64,000 bases of DNA from Synechococcales cyanobacterium GL140_1_metabinner_5_sub (lineage in GTDB: Bacteria > Cyanobacteriota > Cyanobacteriia > Cyanobacteriales > Chamaesiphonaceae): NCBI GenBank assembly GCA_025359065.1, contig JANYHM010000079.1:1-64000 (forward strand), written 5' to 3'. Both the position numbers and the translations under genes were made by a program. The notes beneath the pieces are model-generated. The model saw nothing but the letters and a program-made list of their open reading frames with translations. It did not search any database and was not told where the DNA came from. Shown in pieces: positions 20,672 to 54,790 of the stretch. The first letter of the stretch is position 1, and every line of letters begins with the position of its first letter.

Positions 20672-20972
20672 AGTAGACGATGTGAGCGGTTATTGCTAAC
20701 ATACCCAGACCATAATTACAAAGTACCTTTATTTCCAAGAATAAATTAACAAATCTGGGAAGGCGCTGATACTCGGTCAAGTGAACGATCTGGAAGACAA
20801 CTTGAGGCGATCTAAATCACAGAAAGAAATTTCTTTCGATGGAAAAAGATACTCTGCTAATTCCTTGTATTCCCTTTCCCAAAAGGGTTGTGTCGATTTA
20901 GCGATGCTGATTGATCTAACAAATACTTGATCGACTTGTAATTTCATCTCAATTTCACACTACTGGGCAATA

Positions 20973-21090
20973 CTGAAGACATGTCAAAGGTGTTCATTGG
21001 TTATTTATTTAATGCCAACTCAACATCTTCAGATCACACACCACGAAAACTTACTGCTCCCGCTTCTCTTGTAGAGGTGGGTTATTTTTT
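20973..21090 (+). ncRNA. candidate small RNA with terminator
   Basis: In the 497-bp gap 20672-21168, CTGAAGA (20973-20979) pairs with TCTTCAG (21026-21032), extended by TGT/ACA after a two-base bulge. An unpaired stretch ATCACACACCACGAAAAC follows. A terminator-like hairpin then begins CCCGCTTCTCT at 21059 and is followed by TTATTTTTT. Two hairpins around an unpaired CACAC segment recall the layout of cyanobacterial Yfr1, but its conserved ACTCCTCACAC is absent. The rest of the gap holds nothing recognised. Confidence 0.3.
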
Positions 21091-21168: not shown

Positions 21169-21858
21169 ATGCGGCTATTACTAGTAGAAGACGAACCAGA
21201 TTTAGGTGCAGCTATCCAGCAGACCCTCACCCAATCGGCCTATGTAGTGGACTGGGTACAGGATGGAGATTTAGCTTGGGAGTATCTCACATCCAATTGG
21301 ACGAAGTATGAAATGGCGATCTTTGACTGGCTGTTACCTGGTTTATCGGGCATTGAGCTATGTCAACGCTTGCGCAGCCAATCTCAGGCTCTGCCAATTT
21401 TGATGCTGACTGCACGAGACAGCATGGAAGACAAGGTGATGGGGCTAGATGCGGGAGCCGATGATTATTTAGTCAAGCCCTTTGGCATGGCAGAGCTATT
21501 AGCCAGACTGCGGGCTTTGCAGCGTCGATCGCCCCAGTTACAATCCCAGCAATTACAGGCGGGGGATCTGCTGTTAGACTACAACACTAGAACGGTGATG
21601 CAGATTTCTGGCCAGAATCATCTGCCGGTTTCGTTGACTACCAAAGAGCTGCAAATGTTGGAATATCTCATGCGTCACCCCGATCGGATCTTAACCAGTG
21701 AGCAGATTCGCGCCCAAATTTGGTCTTTGGATTCCGATAGCTTTAGTAATGTGGTGGCCGCTCAAATGCGTTTATTACGCCGAAAGCTGGCTGATATTGA
21801 ATGTCAAAGCACAATCGAGACAGTGCGCGGAGTAGGCTATCGATTTGTGGTTGGTTAA
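21169..21858 (+). CDS. OmpR/PhoB-family response regulator (RppA-like)
   Basis: The 229-residue protein has a receiver domain with acidic pocket (VEDEP), phospho-acceptor Asp53 in IFDWLLPGLSG, and the conserved Lys in YLVKPFG. A C-terminal winged helix of the OmpR type ends GVGYRFVVG. The LLPGLSGIELCQRLR stretch is close to the RppA/NrsR/CopR subgroup of cyanobacteria. The stop is 3 bp from the histidine kinase start, so they form a coupled pair. The signal is unknown. A probable -10 (TATAGT) sits about 35 bp upstream. Confidence 0.92.
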   Translation: MRLLLVEDEPDLGAAIQQTLTQSAYVVDWVQDGDLAWEYLTSNWTKYEMAIFDWLLPGLSGIELCQRLRSQSQALPILMLTARDSMEDKVMGLDAGADDYLVKPFGMAELLARLRALQRRSPQLQSQQLQAGDLLLDYNTRTVMQISGQNHLPVSLTTKELQMLEYLMRHPDRILTSEQIRAQIWSLDSDSFSNVVAAQMRLLRRKLADIECQSTIETVRGVGYRFVVG

Positions 21859-21861
21859 GTC

Positions 21862-23244
21862 ATGCAAAGAAATAAACTGTTTAGTAGAACTCGCTGGAGA
21901 TTAGCATTTTCTTATGCTGCCGCCATGGCAATTATTTTAGGTATTATGGGTGGCATTTGGTATGTCACTACCCAACACATTTTGATGTTTAGCGCCACTA
22001 AAGAGTTAGAGTCTTTTGTGGGAGTTATGCACAAAGAAATTGAAACCAATCTCAACAAGCCAGGAGAAGTCTCTAAAGACGTGCTGGTTTTTATGCCCCA
22101 GATATGTGTGTCTGATAATAAATGCCCAGAAAAAAAACAGCAGTTTCATCGTTATCTTAAGTCTACTCTAGTTAACGAATATCACATTCAAATGTTCGAT
22201 AAAAATAGTAAATTAATTGCGGCTACTGATAACCAATTACCTCCTAAACTAAATATTATTCCGGCAAAACAGCAGTTAATTGTAGATGTGTCTGATGGTC
22301 GTAATTACTTGCAAAAATCTATGTTGTTGCACGATAACCAACGACGAGACTGGGGATATTTGCAGGTCAGCCGTGACTTACAAGATGTGGCTGATAATCT
22401 GAAGGAAGTACGCTGGTTGTTAACTGTGGGTTTACCGATCGCTTGGGTAGTAATTTTAATTGCTAGCTGGTTGTTAGCCGGGTCGGCCATGAAGCCGATC
22501 TATCGCTCTTATCAGCATATTCAACAATTTACTGCTGATGCAGCCCATGAGCTACGGACTCCCTTGGCCGCAACTCAGGCCACAGTAGAATCTACGTTAT
22601 TGCAACCAGGGGCGGAATGGCCGCAGATACAAGAAGTGTTGATTATTATTCAACGCCAAAACCAAAGACTGATCCAGCTAGTTGCCGATTTATTGTTATT
22701 GTCACGAATTGATCTGCGGGCTTATGGTGGCAAAAGTACTGGCTTTCGTCAAGAGTGGGAAGCCTGTTGCCTAAATAATATTGTGGCTGATTTAGATGAA
22801 GAGCTAGCCGCCATGGCGATCGCGGCGGATATTCAGTTTAATACAGTGATGGGAGTTAATCATGCACTGTGGGTGTGGGGCAATAGTGAACAGCTATATC
22901 GGCTGGTGACAAATTTAATTGTGAATGCTATCAAATATACTCCTCCCAAAGGTCAGGTGACAGTTTTTCTGCGTCAGCGAAATCGGATGGCGATTATTCA
23001 GGTGCAAGATACCGGGGTGGGCATTGATCCTAAGGCACAGAGAAGAATTTTTGATCGATTTTATCGGGTTTATAATAATCGATCGCGCCATGATGGAGGT
23101 TCGGGCTTAGGGCTGGCTATTGTGAAGTCGATCGCGACTCTCCATCGTGGGCGATTAAATGTGCAGAGCAAGGTGGGGCAGGGCAGTCTGTTTACTTTGG
23201 AGCTGCCCAAATTGGGGACTAGGGTGAAGGAGCCTAAATATTAG
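21862..23244 (+). CDS. sensor histidine kinase (RppB-like)
   Basis: This 460-residue kinase has two membrane helices (near residues 17-35 and 185-208) enclosing a periplasmic sensor region of about 150 residues with a CVSDNKCPEKK cysteine pair. The H-box follows (AHELRTPLAA, His near 229), then N (NLIVNAIKYTPP), G1 (VQDTGVGID), F and G2 (GGSGLGLAIVKS) boxes. It is the cognate partner of the adjacent regulator. The layout is that of RppB/NrsS/CopS kinases. Its last 4 bp overlap the end of the convergent GTPase gene. Confidence 0.93.
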   Translation: MQRNKLFSRTRWRLAFSYAAAMAIILGIMGGIWYVTTQHILMFSATKELESFVGVMHKEIETNLNKPGEVSKDVLVFMPQICVSDNKCPEKKQQFHRYLKSTLVNEYHIQMFDKNSKLIAATDNQLPPKLNIIPAKQQLIVDVSDGRNYLQKSMLLHDNQRRDWGYLQVSRDLQDVADNLKEVRWLLTVGLPIAWVVILIASWLLAGSAMKPIYRSYQHIQQFTADAAHELRTPLAATQATVESTLLQPGAEWPQIQEVLIIIQRQNQRLIQLVADLLLLSRIDLRAYGGKSTGFRQEWEACCLNNIVADLDEELAAMAIAADIQFNTVMGVNHALWVWGNSEQLYRLVTNLIVNAIKYTPPKGQVTVFLRQRNRMAIIQVQDTGVGIDPKAQRRIFDRFYRVYNNRSRHDGGSGLGLAIVKSIATLHRGRLNVQSKVGQGSLFTLELPKLGTRVKEPKY

Positions 23245-42414: not shown

Positions 42415-43824
42415 CTACCCAAGGACTTTTTTAATAGCTGTAGACAGCACCAATTTAATGTGGCCTAGTGCCCGATGATGATTGTGCTTACGAGGAAATG
42501 TTACTGAAAATACGCTGCCAAAGCCGACAGTACTTTTCACCCTAACATTAGCGCCATAAGTGCTGGCGATCGACTTCACGATAGTTAACCCCAAGCCAGT
42601 CCCACCCGTTTTCCGATCGCGGGACATCGAGACGCGGTAAAAACGGTCAAAAATTTTAGCTAGTTCTTGAGCTGGAATGCCTATGCCAGTATCCCTGACA
42701 TGCAACGTGTAATATCGCGCAGTTGCAGAAATACTGATGGTGATCTCGCCGCCCGAGGGAGTATACTTAACGGCATTTTCTACCAAATTACTAACCAGTC
42801 GCGTGAGACGATCTCCGTGCCCTCGGATGTGGACTGGACGGAGGTGAGCTGGAATGGTTACTGTAATCTGGTGGCTATGGTGCAGACTGCTTAAGTCTTC
42901 TGCTACGTCCTCCACAATTTCATCCAGATAGCAATAGCTGCTGTCTACTGTAGGGCGATCGAGTTGAGCGACCAGCAGTAAATCATTCACGATGCCTGCC
43001 AAGCGAGAGTTTTGTCGGTGCAATTCTTCCAAATAAACTACAAAACTAGAGTCAGTAGACTGATTTATTTTTCTTTCGATGTTCAATTGATTGATCGCCA
43101 AGGGAGTGCGGAGTTCGTGAGCCACGCTCGCTGAAAAAAGCTGCTGATGCTCATAGGCTTTGTAGAGCGGCAGCATAGCTCTACCTGCGAAGTACCAGCT
43201 TAACCCACCCATGACCACTAAGGCCACTGGCAAGGAGAGCAGCAAGCTCACTTGCAGCGCTTGTAAAGAACTGACCAGCTCATTGGTATTATGGCCAATA
43301 TACAGCCGCCCCCAAATGGGCTGGGGATAGCGATCGCTATGACCATGAATCACCATCATGTACTGCCGATAACGGTGGTGGCTTGCCTCTTGCCATGTTG
43401 TCCAGGTGAGGGTCTGGTGCAGATTGTTGCGAACTGTAGTGGGCACCTTGCCCGCAGTGGCTCGCACCTTACCAGTGTTATCTGTGAGCACTAGATAATA
43501 TCGATCGACGGCGGCAAAGGCATTGGTGATATGTCGTTGAGTTGTGGTGCCATCGGTGCCTTGACAGCGGGGTGTAATACAAAAGTCAGGAAATATTTGT
43601 TGAATCGAGTCATCAATTTTATCTGGCAATACCAACTTTGGTTCTAGGCTGTTATGAATAGTGTTAGCTACAAAAGCAATTTCTCGATCGACCGTTTGAT
43701 AGTGATGTTGCTCTGTGAGATAGTAAGTTTCTATGCCAATTAGAGAATACAGAATGCCCATCATCCCTGCATAGAATGCTGCCAATTTGAGCTGAGAGCG
43801 GTGGAGGAGGGCATTACCTTTCAT
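42415..43824 (-). CDS. sensor histidine kinase, CopS-like
   Basis: The 469-residue kinase has two membrane helices (about 13-33 and 188-212) with a periplasmic domain between, holding the cysteine pair FCITPRCQG. H-box VAHELRTPLA (His near 236), N-box NLVENAVKYTPSGG, G1 VRDTGIGIP, and G2 GGTGLGLTIVKS are intact. Its gene overlaps the regulator gene by 11 bp. Context with a DUF305 protein and an RND pump points to copper or another heavy metal as the signal, as for Synechocystis CopS. Metal identity is inferred. Confidence 0.88.
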   Translation of the reverse strand: MKGNALLHRSQLKLAAFYAGMMGILYSLIGIETYYLTEQHHYQTVDREIAFVANTIHNSLEPKLVLPDKIDDSIQQIFPDFCITPRCQGTDGTTTQRHITNAFAAVDRYYLVLTDNTGKVRATAGKVPTTVRNNLHQTLTWTTWQEASHHRYRQYMMVIHGHSDRYPQPIWGRLYIGHNTNELVSSLQALQVSLLLSLPVALVVMGGLSWYFAGRAMLPLYKAYEHQQLFSASVAHELRTPLAINQLNIERKINQSTDSSFVVYLEELHRQNSRLAGIVNDLLLVAQLDRPTVDSSYCYLDEIVEDVAEDLSSLHHSHQITVTIPAHLRPVHIRGHGDRLTRLVSNLVENAVKYTPSGGEITISISATARYYTLHVRDTGIGIPAQELAKIFDRFYRVSMSRDRKTGGTGLGLTIVKSIASTYGANVRVKSTVGFGSVFSVTFPRKHNHHRALGHIKLVLSTAIKKVLG

Positions 43825-44509
43825 GGTTATTTAGACGGTATCCGGTCTGGGGGATAGTTTCGATGATGTCTGCATACTGCGTTCCGGCCAACTTTTTACG
43901 GATTTGGCGTACATGGGAAGCCACCACGTTGCTAAATTTATCAGCATTCAAATCCCAAATATAGCTGCGAATGCGCTCGGTAGTTACTATCTTGTTGGCA
44001 TGTCGCCATAGAAACTCTAAAATTTGGAATTCTTTGTTGGTGAGAGCGATCGTCTTTTGCTGTCCTAGCACATCAGCATAGACTAAGCTGCGGCGATCGG
44101 GGTCAAGAACTAGTCCCCGAGAGGTCAACAGGGGATCGGCTCCTTGCAGGCGGCGCTGAAATACCCGCAGACGAGCTAGCAGTTCAAACTGGCTAAAAGG
44201 CTTGACCAAATAGTCATCAGCACCAGCATCAAGTCCAGCTACCTTGTCACTGATTTCTCCCTTGGCCGTCAGCATTAAAATGGGTATGGTTTTGCCCTGC
44301 TCTCGCGCTAACCGACAAAGCTCAATACCCGAAATTCCCGGAACCATCCAGTCAATTATGGCGATATCATACTCGACATGATAAATTTGCCAATAGTCCC
44401 AAGCTTCCCGACCGTCTTGAAAAGTGTCCACAACATAATTTTCTTGCTGAAGAATGTCAACAATTGCCTTGGCAAGTTCAGTCTCATCTTCTAGCAGTAA
44501 AACTTTCAT
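43814..44509 (-). CDS. OmpR-family response regulator, CopR-like
   Basis: The 231-residue regulator has a receiver domain with Asp53 in IIDWMVPGISG and Lys in YLVKPFSQFE, and an OmpR-type winged helix with SNVVASHVRQIRKKL. It is close in layout to the RppA-like regulator at 21169 but belongs to a metal-resistance cluster. OmpR-type regulators bind direct repeats about 11 bp apart; two such sites (GATGAG-N5-GATGA) lie upstream of the DUF305 and membrane-fusion genes. It lies 21 bp behind the lipoprotein gene in a copM-lipoprotein-copR-copS order. Confidence 0.88.
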   Translation of the reverse strand: MKVLLLEDETELAKAIVDILQQENYVVDTFQDGREAWDYWQIYHVEYDIAIIDWMVPGISGIELCRLAREQGKTIPILMLTAKGEISDKVAGLDAGADDYLVKPFSQFELLARLRVFQRRLQGADPLLTSRGLVLDPDRRSLVYADVLGQQKTIALTNKEFQILEFLWRHANKIVTTERIRSYIWDLNADKFSNVVASHVRQIRKKLAGTQYADIIETIPQTGYRLNNHER

Positions 44510-44530: not shown

Positions 44531-44992
44531 CTATCGTTTGAAGCTAAATCGACCATCAACCACAATACCATTGATGTTAGCTGTTGCCTTGACTTGATAC
44601 TGCCCCTGCTCTGTACCAGGAAGAACCCCGGCAAAATGCTGTCCGGCCACATCATACTTCAGATTCACCGTCTCAGTCTTGCCGCTAGGAGTCTGTACTT
44701 GAAGTACTGCTTTAGCAGTGGGGACGCTAGCGTGCGTATCGCTTTTTTGCACCAGCAAATCCATGTGGGTTTGATTGGCTTCTGGGTCAGAAATAAATTC
44801 TAAGTGAATTCCTTGGGACTCTACCACCATACCACTTTTAGCCCCATGATCAATACTTGCTTGTGATGTGCTGGTCATCGTTGTCGTGGTGCTGGGCGAT
44901 GTCTCTATTGAGGGCTTAGGGTTGCTACAAGCCACGAGTGAGGCTAAAACAGTGGTGGCGAAGAGCAAAGCAGCAGGTCGAAGAAAACGCAT
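44531..44992 (-). CDS. lipoprotein with YtkA/CopC-like beta domain
   Basis: The 153-residue protein has a lipoprotein signal peptide ending SLVAC. A Ser/Thr-rich linker follows, then a beta-sandwich-like domain (about 60-153) with DPEANQTHMDLLVQKSD and GQYQVKATANINGIVVDGRF, like the YtkA/FixH group. His and Met residues in DHGAKSGM and THMD could bind metal. It lies between the DUF305 and copR-like genes, 19 and 21 bp away, so it belongs to the same operon. A periplasmic metal-handling role is an inference from this position. Confidence 0.7.
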   Translation of the reverse strand: MRFLRPAALLFATTVLASLVACSNPKPSIETSPSTTTTMTSTSQASIDHGAKSGMVVESQGIHLEFISDPEANQTHMDLLVQKSDTHASVPTAKAVLQVQTPSGKTETVNLKYDVAGQHFAGVLPGTEQGQYQVKATANINGIVVDGRFSFKR

Positions 44993-45011: not shown

Positions 45012-45674
45012 TTATTTGCTTAGATACCACTGACTGCGCCAGCGCTTCATTTGGTCAATTTCTTTTTGCTGAGAAGCAATAATGCTGTTAGCGAGCTGTT
45101 TCATTTCGGGACGCTGGGACTTTTTATTTAGATCTTGCGCCATAGTGACTGCGCCTTGATGATGGGGGATCATGGCATCTAAGAATCGTTTGTCGAAGCC
45201 ACTATTTGCAGCACCCAAATCCATATCCATCTGCATCATTTTTTTGTACTCAGCGGTCATCGGCATTTCATGATTGGCTTCGCTATGCCACATCATGGCG
45301 GTGTCCGCAGCTTTGGGATACCATTGCTTGCGCCATTTTTGCATTTGGGCTACTTCAGTACTCTGGGCGGCAATAATGCTTCTGGCAAACTGAATTAGCT
45401 CAGGCCGCTTAGACTTAGCTAAGACTTCTTTGGCCATAACGACGGCTCCTTGGTGGTGTGGCACCATAGCATCGATAAACCGCAGGTCATAGTTAGCATT
45501 AGCTGGCCCAAGATCCATGTTGTGGCTGTTGCCATGATCAGAACTTGCTCTGCCATGATGACCAGAGTTTTGAGCGACGGCTGCTGCGGGCAGGGGGGTG
45601 GAAGCCTTTGAGCTACAGGCGCTCAGGCTAGACAAAACTAAAAGCGCAGAGATGCTGAATACAAAAGGACGCAT
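45012..45674 (-). CDS. CopM-like protein with two DUF305 domains
   Basis: The 220-residue protein has a lipoprotein-type signal (LSSLSAC) and two DUF305 domains. Each carries the metal-binding signature DAMVPHHQGAVVMA or DAMIPHHQGAVTMA, plus SIIAxQxxEIxQMxxWR. Further His and Met residues (HHGRASSDHGNSHNM; MMWHSEANHEMPM) add binding sites. In Synechocystis, CopM is a DUF305 copper-binding protein encoded with copRS, the same association as here. It is the first gene of the operon, with a candidate operator 44 bp upstream. Confidence 0.85.
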   Translation of the reverse strand: MRPFVFSISALLVLSSLSACSSKASTPLPAAAVAQNSGHHGRASSDHGNSHNMDLGPANANYDLRFIDAMVPHHQGAVVMAKEVLAKSKRPELIQFARSIIAAQSTEVAQMQKWRKQWYPKAADTAMMWHSEANHEMPMTAEYKKMMQMDMDLGAANSGFDKRFLDAMIPHHQGAVTMAQDLNKKSQRPEMKQLANSIIASQQKEIDQMKRWRSQWYLSK

Positions 45675-45718
45675 GGGAGAAGGGTGCTGAACATTATTTA
45701 AGACGTTAACGCAAATGG

Positions 45719-45735
45719 GATGAGTTTTAGATGAT
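45719..45735 (-). promoter_or_regulatory. candidate CopR-like operator upstream of the copM operon
   Basis: GATGAG-ttttA-GATGAT is a direct repeat with 11-bp period, the usual layout for OmpR/PhoB-type regulators. It lies 44 bp upstream of the DUF305 gene and 6 bp before the divergent small secreted-protein gene. The same motif occurs at 51426-51442 in the same orientation and at nearly the same distance from the pump operon. Confidence 0.55.
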
Positions 45736-45741
45736 CTTTTT

Positions 45742-46167
45742 ATGAAGCTGCAAACTCACCTGAACTTCATTGGCGCTCAGTTATTTTATATGGTGTACTC
45801 CATATTGATGGCTCTATTTATGCTAAAAAGTACTTTGGCCATTTTTCTGTTGAATAGCCTAGTGATGAATACTGCAATAGCAGCCTCATTACCCAGAAAT
45901 CCGACCTCAGAAAGTGTCGTTAGTGTCAGTAATGGTTCAGTTATTACTCCCTTTGAGCTGAGTCATCGAGCTTACCAAGGACGTTACTCTTCACAAGGCG
46001 TTAATGGCTTTGCTTCTCTTAAGCAGCAAACGCGCTGGGGAAGAATCACAGCAGATACTATAGTAGAGGCTGCTATTACCATGGGTGATCTGCCACTACG
46101 AATCAGAAGTGATCGACAATATCTCAGTGATGTAGAGTGGCGGCTTTGGAGCTTTACTAGGCATTAA
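45742..46167 (+). CDS. small exported protein, divergent from copM-like gene
   Basis: The 141-residue protein has a long hydrophobic N-terminus (about 12-45) ending in AIAASLP, a likely signal peptide; the Met at residue 17 may be the true start. The mature part, with YQGRYSSQGVNGFASL and TRWGRITADTIVEAAITMG, matches a pattern I recall in small cyanobacterial secreted proteins of unknown function. It is transcribed away from the DUF305 gene, and the shared 67-bp gap contains the candidate operator. It may therefore belong to the metal regulon. Confidence 0.6.
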   Translation: MKLQTHLNFIGAQLFYMVYSILMALFMLKSTLAIFLLNSLVMNTAIAASLPRNPTSESVVSVSNGSVITPFELSHRAYQGRYSSQGVNGFASLKQQTRWGRITADTIVEAAITMGDLPLRIRSDRQYLSDVEWRLWSFTRH

Positions 46168-46373
46168 GTAGCCTTATAAAAACAACTTGTGCAACTTCTA
46201 CAGACTGGTTTCTGGTGGGTATTGTGGAAGAGGTGCGACTTCAATTTGACATTTCTCATTTCTATACGCTTTACATTAAGCCTCCTCATTTACCCAGTTT
46301 AATACATTTGAAAATCTTACGTATTGAGCGGGGTAAATGGAAGTCTTTTTCTAGCATTCTTTCAGGTTTTGAG

Positions 46374-49300
46374 TCATTCTAACTCATTGGGAAGTAAATA
46401 CTTGCCGAATTTAATATAGATGGCTGGTAAAACAACCAAGGTGATCGCGGTGGATGTAAACAGTCCGCCAAAGACCACGATCGACAGAGGCTGCAATAGT
46501 TCTTGCCCCGACCCTCCTTGCAGAATGGTGGGCACTAAGCCGAGAGCAGAAGTCAGCGCCGTCATCAAAATTGCATTCAGCCGCTCCATAGAGCCTTTGA
46601 CCACCACATCAATCAAAGGCAAACCTGCGGCATGTTTACTATTATAGTTATTCACGAGCAGCAAGCCATTGCGAGTAGCTAAGCCAAACAGTGATACAAA
46701 CCCCACGAGCGAAGCGATCGACAAGATGCCACCGGTCAGGGCTACAGCCAGAACACCCCCAATTAAGCCGATGGGTAGATTGATCATAATAGCAATAGTC
46801 GAAGGAACAGACTTTACTGACAAATACATTAATAGGGTGACACCAATGAAGGCCAAAGCGCCAAAGACTAGAATGTTGTTGGTCGATCGCTCCTCGGCTT
46901 CATACTGACCAGCGTAGTTTATGTAATACCCTTGTGGCAGAGCTACATTGCTCTTGATCTTGGCTTCTAGCTCCGTCACAACCGATCGCAAATCTCGATC
47001 TTTAGTATTCGCTGCCACCACTACCATGCGCGAAATATCTTCGTGGTTAATCGTATTTGGCCCTTGACCCATCTCAATATCGGCTATGCTGCTGAGGGGG
47101 ATATTGACTCCGCTGGGGGTACTAACTAACAGGTTGCGAATGCCCTGCATATCGCTGCGCGCCGCTGGTTTTAGCCATACTACTAAATCAAAAGATTGCT
47201 GTTTTTCTAGCACCTGAGAGACCACTTGGCCACTGAGAGCTGTCTCGATCACCTTAGCCATGTCGGCTACCGAGAGACCATAGCGGCTGGCTGCCGATCG
47301 ATTGAACTTGATTTGGATCTGGGGAATAGGAATTTGTTGCTCCAGCACCAAATCTACAATGCCCGGTACGGTCTTCATTTCTGCCTCCACCTGCTCTCCC
47401 AGACGACGCAGTTCAGCTAGATCTGACCCCGCAATTTTAACGGCGATCGCACTGCGCACACCGGACAACACCTCATCCATCCGATGGGATAAAAAGCCGC
47501 CAACATTAGGTGCTGCACCGGGCACCTTGGCAAATTCTTCCCGCAGTTTAGCAATGGTGGCTGGTCGGTTACGCATACCAGCCGCACTGAGTTCAATATC
47601 CACATGAGCCAAATTCACACTGGCCGCGTCGGCATCGCCAGCGGCTCGTCCCGATCGGGTTTGAATAAATTTAAAGCGAGGATCTTTCTTCAGAACCTTT
47701 TCTAGTAATGATCCAGCCTGGGCGGTAGCCGATAGAGACACACCTGGATAGAGAGTGAGGGTGTTGACCATGGTTTGCTCTTGAAATTCTGGCAAGAAAA
47801 TGCGTCCGAAACTAGGAATCATTAAAATAGCTACTAGCAGCAAGACTATGGATGTAGCCATTACTGACCCTGCACCCTGAAAAGCCATCTTGAGACATTG
47901 CCCATATAGCTGCTGACAGGCACGAGCCAGCCAAGGTTCACGCCGACTAATTTTAGCGGCTGGTAATAACAGGGCGCAGAGAGCAGGCGAAACCAACAAA
48001 GACTCAACGCTAGACACTACCACTACTACCAGATAAGCAACACCCATGGCCGAGAAAATGCGTCCATCTACACCGGGCAGCGTAAAAATAGGCGAAAAGA
48101 CCACTATGCCAATAATAGTGGCTCCAATTAAAGATTCTCGCACCTCTTCGGCTCCTTGAAAAATCACTTCCAATACGGGTAATGGCTGCTCCCGATAGTG
48201 GTTTTCCCGCAGGCGGCGATAGGTATTTTCGCCATAGACAATAGCATCATCAATGGCTGTCCCAATAGCTACGGTCAGCCCACCTAAAGTCATGGTATTT
48301 AGCCCCACACCGAGCACCGAGAGTATGAGCAAGCTAAACACTAATGTCAGCACAAAATCTAGCAAGCAGACTGTCAATGTCCGCCAATTCATCAGAAAAG
48401 GAATCAATACTAAGCTGGCAATCAAGCTGCCTTGGGCGAGGGAAGATACCACATTCTGCACTGAAGAATCGATATAACTACGCTGCCGAAAAGTGGTTGT
48501 TACCTGCATGGTGTTAGGCAGGGTTTTCTGGATATCGGCCATGGCCTTCTCCACAGCCCTGGAAACCTTGGGGGTATCTACCGCAGGCTGCTTATTCACC
48601 ATCACAATGACCGCAGGTTGCCCATTAAAGCTGCCATCTCCCCGTTTAATGGCTCCACCGAGTTGAATATCGGCAACATCTTGGAGTTTGATAGGGATGC
48701 CATTGCTGGCCGTAACTGTAGATTGACGCAGATCGTCGAGGGACTCAATGCGACCAAGACCCCGCACCAACTGCTCTCGATCGGGCGTAATCAAATAGCC
48801 CCCAGCCGCATTCAGATTAGCCCCCTTCGCCGCAGTCGCAACCTGTTCAAGGGTGACATTAGTAGCGGCTAGCTTAGCCGGATCTACCAATACCTGATAC
48901 TGCCGCTGCTCTCCCCCAAAAACCAGCACTTGACTCACACCCGGCACGGCCAGCAGGCGATTGTTCACTTGCCAGTCTACAATTCGCCGCACGTCCATGA
49001 GACTTTGGCTACTGTTGGGAGCCAGCGTAAAGGCATATTGCAAAACCAAGCCCACGGGCGAACTCTGGGGCGAGATCTGGGGTGGGCTGCTGCCCGGTGG
49101 AAGTTTTGTAATTGCTTGCTGGAGCCGCTCGGATACCCGTTGACGGGCTTGGTAGGGATCAACGCTCCAGTCGAAAACCGTGCGGATTGAGGATATCCCT
49201 GCGGCTGAGCTAGAGCGGACAGCGCTAATACCGGGTGTGCCATTGAGGGCACTTTCTAGGGGTACCGTCACCAGGGATTCCACTTCTTCAGGAGCCAAAC

Positions 49301-49463
49301 CGGGGGCTTCGGTTTGAATTTCTACTTGGGGTGGGGCAAAGGCCGGCAGCACATCTAGGGGCATTTGAGGGATGGCATAGACTGTCCATAGCACTAACCC
49401 CACTGTTCCTAAAAGCGTTAGCCAGCGGCGATCGATGACCCAGCGTACAATGTCGTTTAGCAT
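46374..49463 (-). CDS. heavy-metal efflux RND pump (CusA/CopA-like)
   Basis: The protein (1029 residues from ATG 49463) is a full-length RND transporter of the heavy-metal group. It has the first helix WLTLLGTVGLVLW, the PQMPLDVLPAFAPPQVEIQT porter start, and the TM4 proton-relay region GTAIDDAIVYGEN with acidic residues typical of CusA-type pumps. The second half repeats the fold, with LFGLATRNGLLLVNN. It should export monovalent metal (copper or silver) or another heavy metal from periplasm to outside. The start lies 7 bp after the membrane-fusion gene. No outer-membrane channel gene is adjacent. Confidence 0.9.
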   Translation of the reverse strand: MLNDIVRWVIDRRWLTLLGTVGLVLWTVYAIPQMPLDVLPAFAPPQVEIQTEAPGLAPEEVESLVTVPLESALNGTPGISAVRSSSAAGISSIRTVFDWSVDPYQARQRVSERLQQAITKLPPGSSPPQISPQSSPVGLVLQYAFTLAPNSSQSLMDVRRIVDWQVNNRLLAVPGVSQVLVFGGEQRQYQVLVDPAKLAATNVTLEQVATAAKGANLNAAGGYLITPDREQLVRGLGRIESLDDLRQSTVTASNGIPIKLQDVADIQLGGAIKRGDGSFNGQPAVIVMVNKQPAVDTPKVSRAVEKAMADIQKTLPNTMQVTTTFRQRSYIDSSVQNVVSSLAQGSLIASLVLIPFLMNWRTLTVCLLDFVLTLVFSLLILSVLGVGLNTMTLGGLTVAIGTAIDDAIVYGENTYRRLRENHYREQPLPVLEVIFQGAEEVRESLIGATIIGIVVFSPIFTLPGVDGRIFSAMGVAYLVVVVVSSVESLLVSPALCALLLPAAKISRREPWLARACQQLYGQCLKMAFQGAGSVMATSIVLLLVAILMIPSFGRIFLPEFQEQTMVNTLTLYPGVSLSATAQAGSLLEKVLKKDPRFKFIQTRSGRAAGDADAASVNLAHVDIELSAAGMRNRPATIAKLREEFAKVPGAAPNVGGFLSHRMDEVLSGVRSAIAVKIAGSDLAELRRLGEQVEAEMKTVPGIVDLVLEQQIPIPQIQIKFNRSAASRYGLSVADMAKVIETALSGQVVSQVLEKQQSFDLVVWLKPAARSDMQGIRNLLVSTPSGVNIPLSSIADIEMGQGPNTINHEDISRMVVVAANTKDRDLRSVVTELEAKIKSNVALPQGYYINYAGQYEAEERSTNNILVFGALAFIGVTLLMYLSVKSVPSTIAIMINLPIGLIGGVLAVALTGGILSIASLVGFVSLFGLATRNGLLLVNNYNSKHAAGLPLIDVVVKGSMERLNAILMTALTSALGLVPTILQGGSGQELLQPLSIVVFGGLFTSTAITLVVLPAIYIKFGKYLLPNELE

Positions 49464-49470
49464 GTGTTTC

Positions 49471-51378
49471 CTAAAGTTGACTGGTGCTAGACTCGGCGAT
49501 GGGCTGTGCTGGCTGATCATCTAGCGCCAAGGAGTCTGGTAATTGAGGCTGAGCCGGTTCTTCTGATTCCAGTAAGGTTGCGGTAATGACCCGATCAATC
49601 TCCGCATTCAGGTCTTGAGTGGATGCCGAACTTGCCCCCCGACGGCGGCGGAAAAAGAGAGCTCCTAAACTCAACGCTACAGCGCCACTGGCCACTGGCC
49701 ATAGTCCGATCGGCAAAGCTGCTGTATTGGATGCAGCACTCTGCTGGGCTGCTGGCGATTCTGGATGGTCTCCCCGTAAGGATTGGGCATAGAGAGACAG
49801 AGCATTTTGGGTCACGACTCGATCGCCCGCAAACAGACCTTGAGTAATTTCCAGTCGCTCAGCCGTTGTTCTGCCGGTCTTGACTTCGATCGCCTGAAAG
49901 GTGTCGCCGCTTTGAACATAGAGCAGTTTTTTGCCATTCGCTTCTACCAGTGCCGAGCTGGGCACCGAGAGTACTGCTGAGGCGCTGTTACCAGTCGCTA
50001 CTTCTAGCTCAGCGAACATTCCTGCCTTTAGTTGACCATCAGTGTTGTCTAACAAGGTCTGCACTGGCACCGTGCGCTTTTCGCCTACGCCTGTTCCAAT
50101 GCGGCTTACTGTGCCGGTCAGGACTTGCCCCGATGCCACCCTGGCATAGACGGTTTGACCCACGGCTACCTTGGCCAGATCGCCTTCATAGAGGTTAGCG
50201 GTGGCCACCACTTGGCGATCGTTCCCTAGGGTCATAATCTGAGTTTCTCCCTCCACCACCGTTTGGCCAACGGTGGCTGGTCGAGCCGTCACGGTGCCAT
50301 TGATCGGCGCGGTGATGGTTACGACTCCCTGTTCGTTGGCCGAAAGACCCAACTGTTTTAGGCGCAGTAGGTAGTGGCGATCGACCAGATCTAACTTGGT
50401 TTTAGCCGCTGTGAGGGCAGCCTGCGATCGCTCTAATTCTGCTGTGGCCGCCGCCACGTCTTTCTGGGTTGATGCCGTGGTGAGGCTGGCCCTGGCTTCA
50501 GCCAGCTTGGCTGCCGATTCTTGCTGACTGCGGAAGGGAAGTTCTGTTTCGGCTTTACGGAGTTCGGTGTCGGCAGTGATTACTTCTATTTGCTGCTGTG
50601 CCTTGGCCAGTTTGGATTGAGCGGCCAGCCACTGCGCCCGAGAATCCAACACCTGTCGCCGAGGTAACGCTCCACCATTGGCCAAACGTTGGTCTTGGCT
50701 GTATCGCTCCTGAGCCACAGCGAGTTCTGTGCGGGCTAGTTCAATATCTGTCTTGGCTATGGTCAGTTGCCGCTGGTACTTGTCGCGAGCTGCCCGCACC
50801 ACCGACTGATCGCGCACGAGGGTTTTATCTCGCTCAAACTGAGCTTGTGCTGCCGTCAGACTGTCTCGGGCACGGTTAATCTCAGCGGCGGCAATGATCC
50901 GATAGCGTTGATAGTTGGCTTGGGCTAATTGCAGGTTAGTTTGAGCCTGTTGCACTGTGGCTCCTAGTTCAGCCCGCTTCTCTTGGGCAGTTACGCGGAG
51001 ATCGGTTAATTCAGCGCTAGTGAGAGTGGCGATCGGCTGACCTGCTTGTACTGAGCTACCTGGCTCTACCATTAGCGCCACAAGTTTGCCGCGCACCGGA
51101 GCTGTAACTAGAGCCTGACGGTTGGGAGCCATTTCAATAACGCCGGTTGCTTTTAGACTGACTGCTAGCAGCCGAGCTGTAATCACTTCGGTTTTGATGC
51201 CCAATTGCTGTGCTGTGGCCGTATCTACCACTATTGATGGACTGCTGCCGCTGCTTTTAAATGTTTCAGAGTGACCACTATGGGCTACCACAGGCCATTG
51301 CGACAAAGAGAGGTGCAACAAGAACAGTCCGGTACTGGTTAGTAATGCAGTGAGCCGAGCCGATGGAAAGAAAACCAT
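49471..51378 (-). CDS. RND membrane-fusion protein (CusB/CopB-like)
   Basis: The 635-residue periplasmic adaptor has a signal peptide, a His-containing start (VAHSGHSETF), the lipoyl half GKLVALMVEPGSSVQAGQPIATL, a long helical hairpin (about 130-310), and the beta-barrel parts (GTVSRIGTGVGEKRTVPV; GMFAELEV). It links the inner-membrane pump to an outer channel. It is longer than usual because of a C-terminal extension with a membrane span (GLWPVASGAVALSLGALFF) and a basic then acidic tail. It is the first gene of the pump operon. Confidence 0.88.
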   Translation of the reverse strand: MVFFPSARLTALLTSTGLFLLHLSLSQWPVVAHSGHSETFKSSGSSPSIVVDTATAQQLGIKTEVITARLLAVSLKATGVIEMAPNRQALVTAPVRGKLVALMVEPGSSVQAGQPIATLTSAELTDLRVTAQEKRAELGATVQQAQTNLQLAQANYQRYRIIAAAEINRARDSLTAAQAQFERDKTLVRDQSVVRAARDKYQRQLTIAKTDIELARTELAVAQERYSQDQRLANGGALPRRQVLDSRAQWLAAQSKLAKAQQQIEVITADTELRKAETELPFRSQQESAAKLAEARASLTTASTQKDVAAATAELERSQAALTAAKTKLDLVDRHYLLRLKQLGLSANEQGVVTITAPINGTVTARPATVGQTVVEGETQIMTLGNDRQVVATANLYEGDLAKVAVGQTVYARVASGQVLTGTVSRIGTGVGEKRTVPVQTLLDNTDGQLKAGMFAELEVATGNSASAVLSVPSSALVEANGKKLLYVQSGDTFQAIEVKTGRTTAERLEITQGLFAGDRVVTQNALSLYAQSLRGDHPESPAAQQSAASNTAALPIGLWPVASGAVALSLGALFFRRRRGASSASTQDLNAEIDRVITATLLESEEPAQPQLPDSLALDDQPAQPIAESSTSQL

Positions 51379-51425
51379 GAATAAGCTGAAGGGTAAAATT
51401 CCTATCTATAGCTTGCTGGATGACC

Positions 51426-51442
51426 GATGAGGTTTGGATGAG
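51426..51442 (-). promoter_or_regulatory. candidate CopR-like operator upstream of the pump operon
   Basis: GATGAG-gtttg-GATGAG is a perfect 6-bp direct repeat with 11-bp period, 47 bp upstream of the membrane-fusion gene. It matches the site at 45719-45735. An extra GATGAC lies at 51419-51424. Confidence 0.55.
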
Positions 51443-51474: not shown

Positions 51475-51505
51475 GAAAAAACCCGTGCTGCAAAGCACGG
51501 GTTTT
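51475..51505 (-). terminator. intrinsic terminator of the Calx-beta gene (possibly bidirectional)
   Basis: ACCCGTGCT (51481-51489) and AGCACGGGT (51494-51502) form a 9-bp stem. On the minus strand six T residues follow; on the plus strand four T residues follow. It lies 22 bp past the Calx-beta stop. Confidence 0.85.
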
Positions 51506-51526
51506 CGGTTTAACTAATCGATCGAT

Positions 51527-54500
51527 TTAGCCAAGTTTAAAGTAAACATCAACAGTGTCGATCGAGTTGCCATTGTTAGTAATTGCATTACTCTTCTCAC
51601 CCAAGATATTGCCCTGAGCATCGGTGCTGAAGTTACTGCTATAAGCAGTGTTCAGCTTAGCAATGCCAGCATCTGCCAAGGAAGTAAGCTCACCAGCATC
51701 TGTCACACCGTTGACATTAGCATCGCGCCAAACACCCAAAGAGCTGAAGAACTCATCGTTAGCATCAACCACACCATCACTGTTGGAATCGAAGCTAGCC
51801 AGTGTGCCGAAGCCTTCGCCTACTGCGCCACCAAATAGCTCACTGCGATTGTCGATCGAGCCGTTACCATTGCGATCGATTGCCAAGAAGCCGTCTTCAC
51901 CAGAGATCCAGCCGGTATTCACTGCTTGACCGCTGTTTAGAATGTCAAACTTCACGCCGGCATCAACGCTCACAGTTTGAACACCGTCGTCGTTGAGGTC
52001 AAGGGCGATCGGGCTGATGTAGTTGATTTTGCTAGCATCCTTGATGGTGACATCGATTTTGCTATCAGCGGCGTGGATGTTAGCATCGGTGGCGCTAGTC
52101 AGGGTAACAGAGAAGGTTTCGTCGCCTTCACGCTGTTTGCTAGCTTCTGGAGAGTTCAAACCAGTGCCGATGTAACGGTTCTCTTGATCGTAGAAGCGGT
52201 ATAGAGACTCGTTGGCATTGAGCTGAGTTGGTAACAGTGCCCAAGGAGAGATCACGTTTTCTTTCCAAGCATCAACCTTAAAGGCATCAGAAGTTTTTTG
52301 GCCAGCTTTGACTGTGACAGTGATGGTGTTACCTGTGTTCAGGGAACCATCGCTCTTAGAAACAGTGAAGTCTTTGTCATCTCTGACCTGATAGCCATTT
52401 GGCTCAGTGTTGATGTTTTTCCAGTAGATGTCGCCCCACTTAGCGAAGTCTTTAGCTACTTGCTGATTTTCTAGGGTGCTGTCAGGGTTGCCAGTAAAGG
52501 TTGGCTGAGTAGCGTTGCCCAGTCTGGTGCCCTTGTTGGCATCAATGCGGTTGGCAGTGCCGTTGGCGATCGTGATAGTAAAAGTCCGATCTTTATCGCT
52601 AACAGTATCTAATTCAACTTTGTAGCTACCAGCACCACCTTCAGTGATCATGTTGTCGCCAACAAGTTTCGCTTTAGGTGTGACACCAGGTGTTGGAGTA
52701 ACTGGTGGAGTTGGAGTAACTGGCGGAGCTGGAGTTACCGGTGGAGTTGGAGTTACCGGTGGAGTTGGAGTTACTGGAGGAGTTGGTGTTACCGGCGGAG
52801 TTGGTGTTACGGGAGGAGTTGGTGTTACCGGCGGAGTTGGAGTTGCGGGTGGAATTGGTGTTACCGGCGGAGTCGGTGTTACTGGTGGAGTCGGAGTTAC
52901 TGGTGGAGTCGGAGTTACTGGAGGAGTTGGAGTTACCGGTGGAGTCGGAGTAACCGGCGGAGTCGGTGTTCCGACAATAGGATCTTTGATATTCAAAGCA
53001 GCCTGTACCATGGTGGGGTCTAAATGTCCCAGACCCTCGTTGTTAGGAGATACTTTGAGAATTAGTGATTCAGAACCTTCTGTCCGGTTATCTGTATTGG
53101 TTTTAACTCGTACTTGAGCAGAAGTTACACCGGGCTTGAAAGCAAAACCGAAGTTATCATCTTCAACCAGTTTTTCCCAGTTTGCGCCATTGTCGATCGA
53201 GACCTGTAAGGTATTTGGATCATAATCAGTCGCCCGATCGGTAGTGCCATCAACCAAGTTGAATTTCGCCCAGCTCCACTTATAGTCGCTGTTTTTGTCT
53301 ACAGAGACAGTCCAAGAAGCAAAATCTCCTTCAAACTTGTCGCCATTAGAAACCACGCCAATTTTTTGCACATCATTGTCCAAAACAAAGGCTGTTTCGA
53401 TGACGTTGCCGCCAGAGAATCCGGTAACTGGTGTAACGGTAAGAGTAAAGTTTTCCCGATCGGTGAAAATATTGCCCGGTGCCAAATTGGCATCCACCAC
53501 ATTGTCATCGACAGTAGGAACTTTCAACAAGAGCTTGTCTTTACCAGCATCAAAGCTGATTTCGTCACCATTGGTGAAAGGCTTAAAGGTAGCTCCACCA
53601 TCGGTAGAAATCTGTAAACCAGTTTTAGTGTAGTCACCAGGAGCGATCGCGGTGCCATCGTTTAGGCTGAGCTTAACTTTGTTTACTCCAGAAACAGGAG
53701 TGCTAGACATGATGGTAAACACTGCCTCTTGGCCTTCTACAACAGAGAAGTCCTTGACCATTAATGTTGGTGCAGAAGGAGTTGGAGTTACCGGCGGAGT
53801 TGGCGTTACCGGTGGAGTTGGTGTTACCGGCGGAGTTGGTGTTACCGGTGGAGTCGGTGTTACCGGAGGAGTTGGCGTTACCGGCGGAGTTGGAGTTACT
53901 GGAGGAGTTGGAGTTACTGGAGGAATTGGCGTTACTGGAGGAATTGGAGTTATTGGAGGAGTTGGTGTTCCACCAATAGGATCCTTGATATTCAAAGCAG
54001 CCTGTACCATGGTGGGGTCTAAATGTCCCAGACCTTCGTTGTTAGGAGATACTTTGAGAATAAGCGATTCAGAACCTTCTGTCCGGTTGTCTGTGTTGGT
54101 TTTAACCCGTACTTGAGCAGAAGTTACACCGGGCTTGAAAGCAAAACCAAAATTGTCATCTTCGTTCAGCTTTGTCCAAGTTCCACCATTGTCGATCGAA
54201 ACCTGCAAGGTGTTTGGATCATAATCAGTTGCCCGATCGGTAGTGCCATCAACCAAGTTGAACTTTGCCCAACTCCACTTATAATCACTGTTCTTGTCTA
54301 CAGACACTGTCCAAGAAGCAAAATCACCCTCAAACTTATCGCCGTTGGACACTACTGAAATCTTCTGGACATCATTGTCTATGATTGAAGCGTTACCAAT
54401 TACTACACCACCGCCAAATCCAGATACAGGGGTAGCAGTGAGGGTGAAATTTTCCCGATCGGTGAAAATATTGCCCGGTGCTAAATTGGCATCTACCACG

Positions 54501-54790
54501 TTGTCATCAACCGTCTTGACTTTTAAGTATAAGCAATCAGTACCTGGCTCAAAGCTAATTTCACTGCCATTGGTAAAGGGTTGATAGTTAGTGCCGTCTA
54601 CAGAATATTGCAGACTATCTAGCAAGTAATCGCCAGGTGCAATAGCCGTACCATTTGCCACGGTCAGCTTGAGCTTATTTCCTTTGTAAGCTGCTGAGCT
54701 AGTGCCGATCGTAAATATGGCATCTTGTCCTTCCTTTACTGAAAAATCTTTGATTTCTAAAGTTGGTAGGCTCAAAGGTTTATTGTTCAC
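51527..54790 (-). CDS. large Calx-beta repeat protein, probably secreted
   Basis: The 1087-residue acidic protein starts LPTLEIKDFSVKEGQDAIF, a Calx-beta domain, and has no signal peptide. Residues 6-273 (two Calx-beta units) and about 340-606 are near copies. Each is followed by a PTPPVT hexapeptide linker (about 65 and 97 residues). A third Calx-beta-like part follows (705-915). The C-terminal 150 residues hold calcium-binding loops (DLNDDGVQ, DRNGNGSIDN, DSNSDGVVDANDEF) found in proteins exported by type I systems. It is probably an extracellular or surface protein. No exporter gene is adjacent. Confidence 0.8.
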   Translation of the reverse strand: MNNKPLSLPTLEIKDFSVKEGQDAIFTIGTSSAAYKGNKLKLTVANGTAIAPGDYLLDSLQYSVDGTNYQPFTNGSEISFEPGTDCLYLKVKTVDDNVVDANLAPGNIFTDRENFTLTATPVSGFGGGVVIGNASIIDNDVQKISVVSNGDKFEGDFASWTVSVDKNSDYKWSWAKFNLVDGTTDRATDYDPNTLQVSIDNGGTWTKLNEDDNFGFAFKPGVTSAQVRVKTNTDNRTEGSESLILKVSPNNEGLGHLDPTMVQAALNIKDPIGGTPTPPITPIPPVTPIPPVTPTPPVTPTPPVTPTPPVTPTPPVTPTPPVTPTPPVTPTPPVTPTPSAPTLMVKDFSVVEGQEAVFTIMSSTPVSGVNKVKLSLNDGTAIAPGDYTKTGLQISTDGGATFKPFTNGDEISFDAGKDKLLLKVPTVDDNVVDANLAPGNIFTDRENFTLTVTPVTGFSGGNVIETAFVLDNDVQKIGVVSNGDKFEGDFASWTVSVDKNSDYKWSWAKFNLVDGTTDRATDYDPNTLQVSIDNGANWEKLVEDDNFGFAFKPGVTSAQVRVKTNTDNRTEGSESLILKVSPNNEGLGHLDPTMVQAALNIKDPIVGTPTPPVTPTPPVTPTPPVTPTPPVTPTPPVTPTPPVTPIPPATPTPPVTPTPPVTPTPPVTPTPPVTPTPPVTPTPPVTPAPPVTPTPPVTPTPGVTPKAKLVGDNMITEGGAGSYKVELDTVSDKDRTFTITIANGTANRIDANKGTRLGNATQPTFTGNPDSTLENQQVAKDFAKWGDIYWKNINTEPNGYQVRDDKDFTVSKSDGSLNTGNTITVTVKAGQKTSDAFKVDAWKENVISPWALLPTQLNANESLYRFYDQENRYIGTGLNSPEASKQREGDETFSVTLTSATDANIHAADSKIDVTIKDASKINYISPIALDLNDDGVQTVSVDAGVKFDILNSGQAVNTGWISGEDGFLAIDRNGNGSIDNRSELFGGAVGEGFGTLASFDSNSDGVVDANDEFFSSLGVWRDANVNGVTDAGELTSLADAGIAKLNTAYSSNFSTDAQGNILGEKSNAITNNGNSIDTVDVYFKLG
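52681..52972. repeat. 18-bp tandem repeat encoding PTPPVT (linker 2)
   Basis: About sixteen 18-bp units with consensus GGAGTTGGAGTTACTGGC on the plus strand, varying mainly at third codon positions. Such arrays tend to change copy number by slippage. The plus-strand open frames seen here are only the repeat read backwards. Confidence 0.9.
53776..53972. repeat. 18-bp tandem repeat encoding PTPPVT (linker 1)
   Basis: About eleven units of the same 18-bp repeat as at 52681-52972, some encoding PIPPVT. It separates the two near-identical Calx-beta blocks. Confidence 0.9.

Follow-up and report, generated by a model that had tools for sequence, protein, structure and literature searches.

The tandem repeats in front of the two metal-resistance operons described here are probably the operator of a CopRS-like two-component system, and box and regulator recognition helix appear to have diverged together in it, a change that would likely insulate the system from a second CopR-like regulator encoded nearby. 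The stretch analyzed (the window, 64,000 nucleotides) belongs to a cyanobacterial genome of 3.92 Mb, for which the genome-wide work consisted of pattern searches and sequence-model searches. Two predicted operators were located in the window:

45719 to 45735, minus strand: predicted cop operator 1, ahead of copM-X-copR-copS, at the position of the TTTCAT-N5-TTTCAT boxes of relatives
51426 to 51442, minus strand: predicted cop operator 2, ahead of the pump operon, found by pattern match in both the window and the genome

On the forward strand operator 1 reads GATGAGTTTTAGATGAT and operator 2 reads GATGAGGTTTGGATGAG. Both downstream operons lie on the minus strand, and read in their direction the sites are ATCATC-TAAAA-CTCATC and CTCATC-CAAAC-CTCATC; the common pattern GATGAG-N5-GATGAK then becomes TCATC-N6-TCATC, a direct repeat with an 11-bp period. 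Operator 1 is 44 bp from the ATG of copM (45674, minus strand) and operator 2 is 47 bp from that of the periplasmic adaptor gene (51378, minus strand). The original prediction had drawn attention to the shared sequence, period, orientation and distances, all of which were recovered as it described them. The pattern was found twice in the window against 0.01 expected matches, and none of 100 shuffles contained it twice. It had also been proposed that a genome search would give few hits, near metal genes. The genome held five matches, compared with one for a reversed control pattern, and three of the five were at metal-resistance operons: the two window sites and a third on another contig, C39 (C39:7041-7057). 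The remaining two fell within unrelated ORFs. A search allowing one mismatch returned 272 matches, with 221 for the reversed control, and was too noisy to yield a regulon list.

The genes of the two operons are the following:

45012 to 45674, minus strand: copM, first gene of operon 1, CopM family metallochaperone (DUF305; NF049983, PF03713)
44531 to 44992, minus strand: gene X, small and lipoprotein-like, with homologs adjoining cop-type pumps in many relatives
43814 to 44509, minus strand: cop-operon response regulator, OmpR/PhoB type, RppA family, recognition helix SNVVASHVRQIRKKL
42415 to 43824, minus strand: sensor histidine kinase, RppB/CopS type (NF041735, 414 bits, cut-off 400)
49471 to 51378, minus strand: periplasmic adaptor of the pump operon, CusB/CzcB type (TIGR01730)
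46374 to 49463, minus strand: CusA/CzcA-family heavy-metal RND pump (TIGR00914, 738 bits, cut-off 701)

The genes of the copM-X-copR-copS operon are tightly spaced, and copM is part of the regulator operon. Its product scored 127 bits against NF049983 (cut-off 90) and matched the CopM crystal structure 5fej with an E-value of 3.5e-31, while gene X is without any Pfam or NCBIfam family match. That the first operon encodes an OmpR/PhoB-type regulator, as had been stated, was borne out by its matches to NF041734 (293 bits, cut-off 250), the receiver domain PF00072 and the winged-helix output domain PF00486. Identity to the Synechocystis proteins is 47% for the regulator (CopR), 35% for the sensor (CopS) and 55% for the pump (CopA). 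The metal handled by the operon pair is probably copper. The three methionine metal-site residues of CusA are absent from the window pump; since they are likewise missing from the Synechocystis copper pump CopA, the pump metal site does not decide the metal. Directly upstream of the pump operon is a gene for a long Calx-beta protein with proline-threonine repeats (51527-54790), and a strong hairpin followed by a T-run (approximately 51481-51506), which resembles a terminator for that gene, separates it from the pump promoter.

The upstream regions of copM, adaptor and regulator genes from related cyanobacteria of the order provided a footprint for comparison. A perfect TTTCAT-N5-TTTCAT pair in gene direction was present in 42 of 63 copM/adaptor upstream regions, compared with about 0.05 in dinucleotide shuffles. 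TTTCAT pairs were spaced at 11 bp in 55 cases and at any other distance up to 40 bp no more than once, so the footprint amounts to a direct repeat with a strict 11-bp period, and readings of the repeats as a pseudo-palindrome or as a single site were dropped on this ground. An alignment of 38 boxes consists of TTTCAT twice and a -10-like hexamer that starts 10 nt past the second TTTCAT and is often preceded by TG. The Synechocystis PCC 6803 plasmid pSYSX carries TTTCATCCTGATTTCAT at copM and TTTCATCTTGGTTTCAT at the adaptor gene. The CopR motif published for the regions upstream of the cop operons, where CopR binding is reported, is TTCATN4-5TTCAT (PMC4182526); the pSYSX DNA itself reads TTCAT-N6-TTCAT with 11-bp periodicity, one base above the published spacing. 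Because the window sites have the same spacing and orientation as those at the cop genes of relatives and at both Synechocystis cop promoters, we read them as the counterpart of the CopR box, that is, as a CopR operator of the OmpR type, which upholds the earlier assignment of the tandem site to a regulator of this kind. In genome G003, a member of the family with four copM-regulator clusters, many TTTCATCNNNNTTTCATC boxes occur on the chromosome and on a 447-kb contig, which suggests a large CopR-type regulon there.

The window sites retain the tandem TCAT half-sites, the 11-bp period and the position upstream of cop genes, and lack the TT that precedes TCAT in both half-sites of the ordinary box. 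TT occupies these two positions in 84 of 86 half-sites from relatives versus 0 of 12 in the cop promoters of this genome, a difference whose p-value of 1e-13 is overstated, as the promoters are related. Instead, (A/C)C dominates, giving a variant half-site (A/C)CTCATC against the ordinary TTTCATC. The shift is carried by separate promoter lineages, namely those of the window copM, the window pump and the C39 pump; the C39 copM promoter, a recent duplicate of its window counterpart, does not count as independent. That duplicate, the C39:7041-7057 site, marks the start of a second copM-X-copR-copS copy with 94% identity in the regulator and 89% in CopM. The copy (C39:1-9870) adjoins a different, family-type pump with an adaptor 46% identical to that of the window, on a contig that ends inside the pump gene. 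Its pump site is TTCATC-N5-CTCATC, with a nearly ordinary first half-site (ATTCATC), and this promoter resembles those of family members save for the second half-site, where TTTTCATC has become CTCTCATC.

The ordinary box was modeled from 38 sequences, all from relatives, and this model found none of the four cop promoters when run over this genome. Its second-best genome match (20940-20976, matched through the -10) was the promoter of a second regulator in the window:

21169 to 21858, plus strand: second CopR/RppA-like regulator, helix SNVVAAQMRLLRRKL, 65% identical to Synechocystis CopR
20942 to 20958, plus strand: ordinary CopR-type box TTTCATCTCAATTTCAC ahead of the second regulator, with AATACT 10 nt downstream

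The two CopR-like regulators of the window are thus 22 kb apart and have different helices and different boxes. The cop-adjacent regulators of relatives group with the second regulator, not with the one in the cop operon. No metal genes adjoin the second RppA/RppB pair (21169-23244). The pair is 97% and 94% identical in G001, the other genome of the genus, which is without copM and the cop-type regulator. Another adaptor-pump-regulator-sensor operon is found on contig C84 (3277-10657); it encodes an A-Q-L type helix and has no recognisable box before the adaptor gene. Further ordinary-box matches on contigs C28, C91, C104 and C120 have no recognised metal gene nearby and were not taken as targets.

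When the cop-operon regulators (three proteins) were compared with 45 relatives, only positions 198, 199 and 202 of 231 were invariant within each group yet different between them. These are S198, H199 and Q202 in the cop-operon group, whereas all 45 relatives, and Synechocystis CopR with them, have A, Q and L. The CopR ortholog helix SNVVAAQxRLLR is therefore not that of the 43814-44509 regulator. The three positions aligned without gaps to V197, H198 and R201 of the PhoB recognition helix. In the structure of PhoB bound to DNA, R201 makes a hydrogen bond to a guanine and V197 is in contact with thymines (PMC3973317, PMC3264566), and in PmrA the equivalent of R201, N196, reads bases (PMC4660055). 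Since two of the three positions are base-contact positions in PhoB, the differences fall on the base-reading face. By analogy, the residues at position 202 (R in PhoB, Q in the window regulator, L in CopR) suggest that this side chain recognizes the base immediately preceding TCAT. The cop-operon regulator, its C39 copy and a regulator from genome G008 formed a separate branch (support 100/98) that is long and unsure in its place in the tree. At strict E-values, 389 genomes from the order and 386 from the phylum yielded no regulators with an SHxRQ helix beyond this genome and G008, and the best matches in a plasmid search were only about 53% identical. The divergent group is small: this genome contributes two almost identical copies, and G008 a single one, on a contig that breaks off within the adaptor gene and does not reach the pump promoter, so that the match between operator and helix rests on one lineage.

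The region between copM and its divergent neighbor contains additional elements, and -10 candidates for both operons were picked from the sequence:

45741 to 45746, minus strand: TTCATA, a third half-site in phase with operator 1 and 11 bp upstream of it, with an equivalent in the C39 copy
45755 to 45771, plus strand: predicted weaker divergent operator CTCACC-TGAAC-TTCATT, facing the small gene
45808 to 46167, plus strand: small secreted-protein gene, divergent from copM, start uncertain (45808 or 45820)
45703 to 45708, minus strand: TAACGT, candidate -10 for the copM operon, 11 nt beyond the last TCAT
51405 to 51410, minus strand: TATAGA, candidate -10 for the pump operon, 16 nt beyond the last in-phase TCAT

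The C39 counterpart of the divergent pair is stronger (CTCATC-TAAAA-CTCATT). Homologs of the small secreted protein are 82% identical on C39 and 31-48% in relatives, where they are located in cop clusters, and the genes of family members carry TTCAT half-sites in arrays of three to four, repeated every 11 bp. The divergent pair and these arrays make the small gene a likely third target of the regulator and the copM/small-gene region a likely two-way operator. A local regulon of an autoregulated sensor plus the pump had been envisaged; the site shared by both operons supports that core, and the regulon itself appears larger, taking in the C39 cop locus and the divergent gene. The -10 spacing is unequal between the two window promoters, the 16-nt gap at the pump comparing with 10-11 nt elsewhere and containing an extra TCATC.

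The rewired operator was weighed against other explanations. Chance likeness of two promoters might be considered, since the motif is short and has only two copies in the window; the expectation of 0.01 in the window, the additional copies at the C39 cop genes and above all the comparative data from the order-wide footprint refute it in practice, and we give it a negligible probability. It is also very improbable that the repeats bind another OmpR-type regulator, several of which are encoded in the genome, or form a sigma-factor element, as the location of the second half-site within the -35 region might indicate, while the cop regulator acts elsewhere. Against such a factor, the site accompanies copM and pump genes across the order and the published CopR-regulated promoters, and the exact variant pattern matches only cop loci and two intragenic sites.

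A reading closer to the data is that the window sites are decayed ordinary CopR boxes, weakly bound by either CopR-like regulator, with no rewiring. The TCAT core and the 11-bp period are retained, the C39 pump keeps one nearly ordinary half-site, and paralogous regulators can share sites, as the match of the Synechocystis nrs promoters to the CopR motif illustrates (PMC4182526). Decay would not be expected to be coherent, however: separate promoter lineages share (A/C)C ahead of TCATC, the three helix positions differ while being fully invariant on both sides, and the ordinary-box model scores no cop promoter of this genome. We therefore regard decay as unlikely and favor joint divergence of box and helix. 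Its strongest form would be a natural specificity switch, in which a single lineage underwent a joint change of residues 198, 199 and 202 and of two bases in each half-site that separated two paralogous CopR-like systems; on present evidence this form is somewhat better than an even proposition.

Under joint divergence, excess metal outside the cytoplasm, probably copper, would activate the sensor and lead to phosphorylation of the regulator. Two protomers arranged head to tail would then occupy the 11-bp repeat next to the -10 and recruit RNA polymerase, in the manner of PhoB at pho boxes. The regulator is predicted to switch on its own operon, copM-X-copR-copS (autoregulation), together with the adaptor-RND pump operon, and a probable third target is the divergent gene for the small secreted protein. 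The operator would have drifted from TTTCATC to (A/C)CTCATC while the regulator acquired the matching S198, H199 and Q202 in place of A, Q and L. The second regulator retains both an ordinary helix and an ordinary box, and the two switches are thereby likely insulated. A shared CopR-type operator is of a known kind; the paired change of operator and recognition helix is new. Few clear-cut natural cases bear on the open question of how duplicated two-component systems are insulated at the DNA level, and the candidate change, at three residues and two bases per half-site, is small enough to suit a direct swap. The survey also fixes the cyanobacterial CopR box as TTTCATC-N4-TTTCATC with an 11-bp period and a -10 located some 10 nt downstream; it also brings a small secreted protein into the CopR regulon as a likely target.

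Among known systems, the copMRS and copBAC operons of Synechocystis PCC 6803 have the same gene set as the window (PMC4335983, PMC4284471). Both feature CopM within the operon of an RppA/RppB-family regulator and sensor, a CusB/CusA-type RND pump operon under the same box, and tandem TCAT half-sites in the same placement and orientation. The window differs in its half-site, (A/C)CTCATC and not TTTCATC, in three recognition-helix residues, in the addition of gene X and the divergent small gene, and in a pump operon without an outer-membrane gene. The Synechocystis nickel system NrsRS/nrsBACD is likewise an OmpR/PhoB-type two-component system controlling itself and an RND pump (PMC4284471), and its promoters, as noted, also match the CopR motif. 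Compared from the literature alone, it differs from the window in handling nickel, having NrsD and lacking CopM. E. coli PhoB shares with the window regulator the OmpR/PhoB winged helix and tandem half-sites at 11 bp, bound beside the -10 as a head-to-tail dimer that in the window is predicted. PhoB differs in its phosphate signal and in its half-site, TGTCA in the pho box, and its guanine-reading R201 corresponds to Q202 in the window regulator and to L in CopR.
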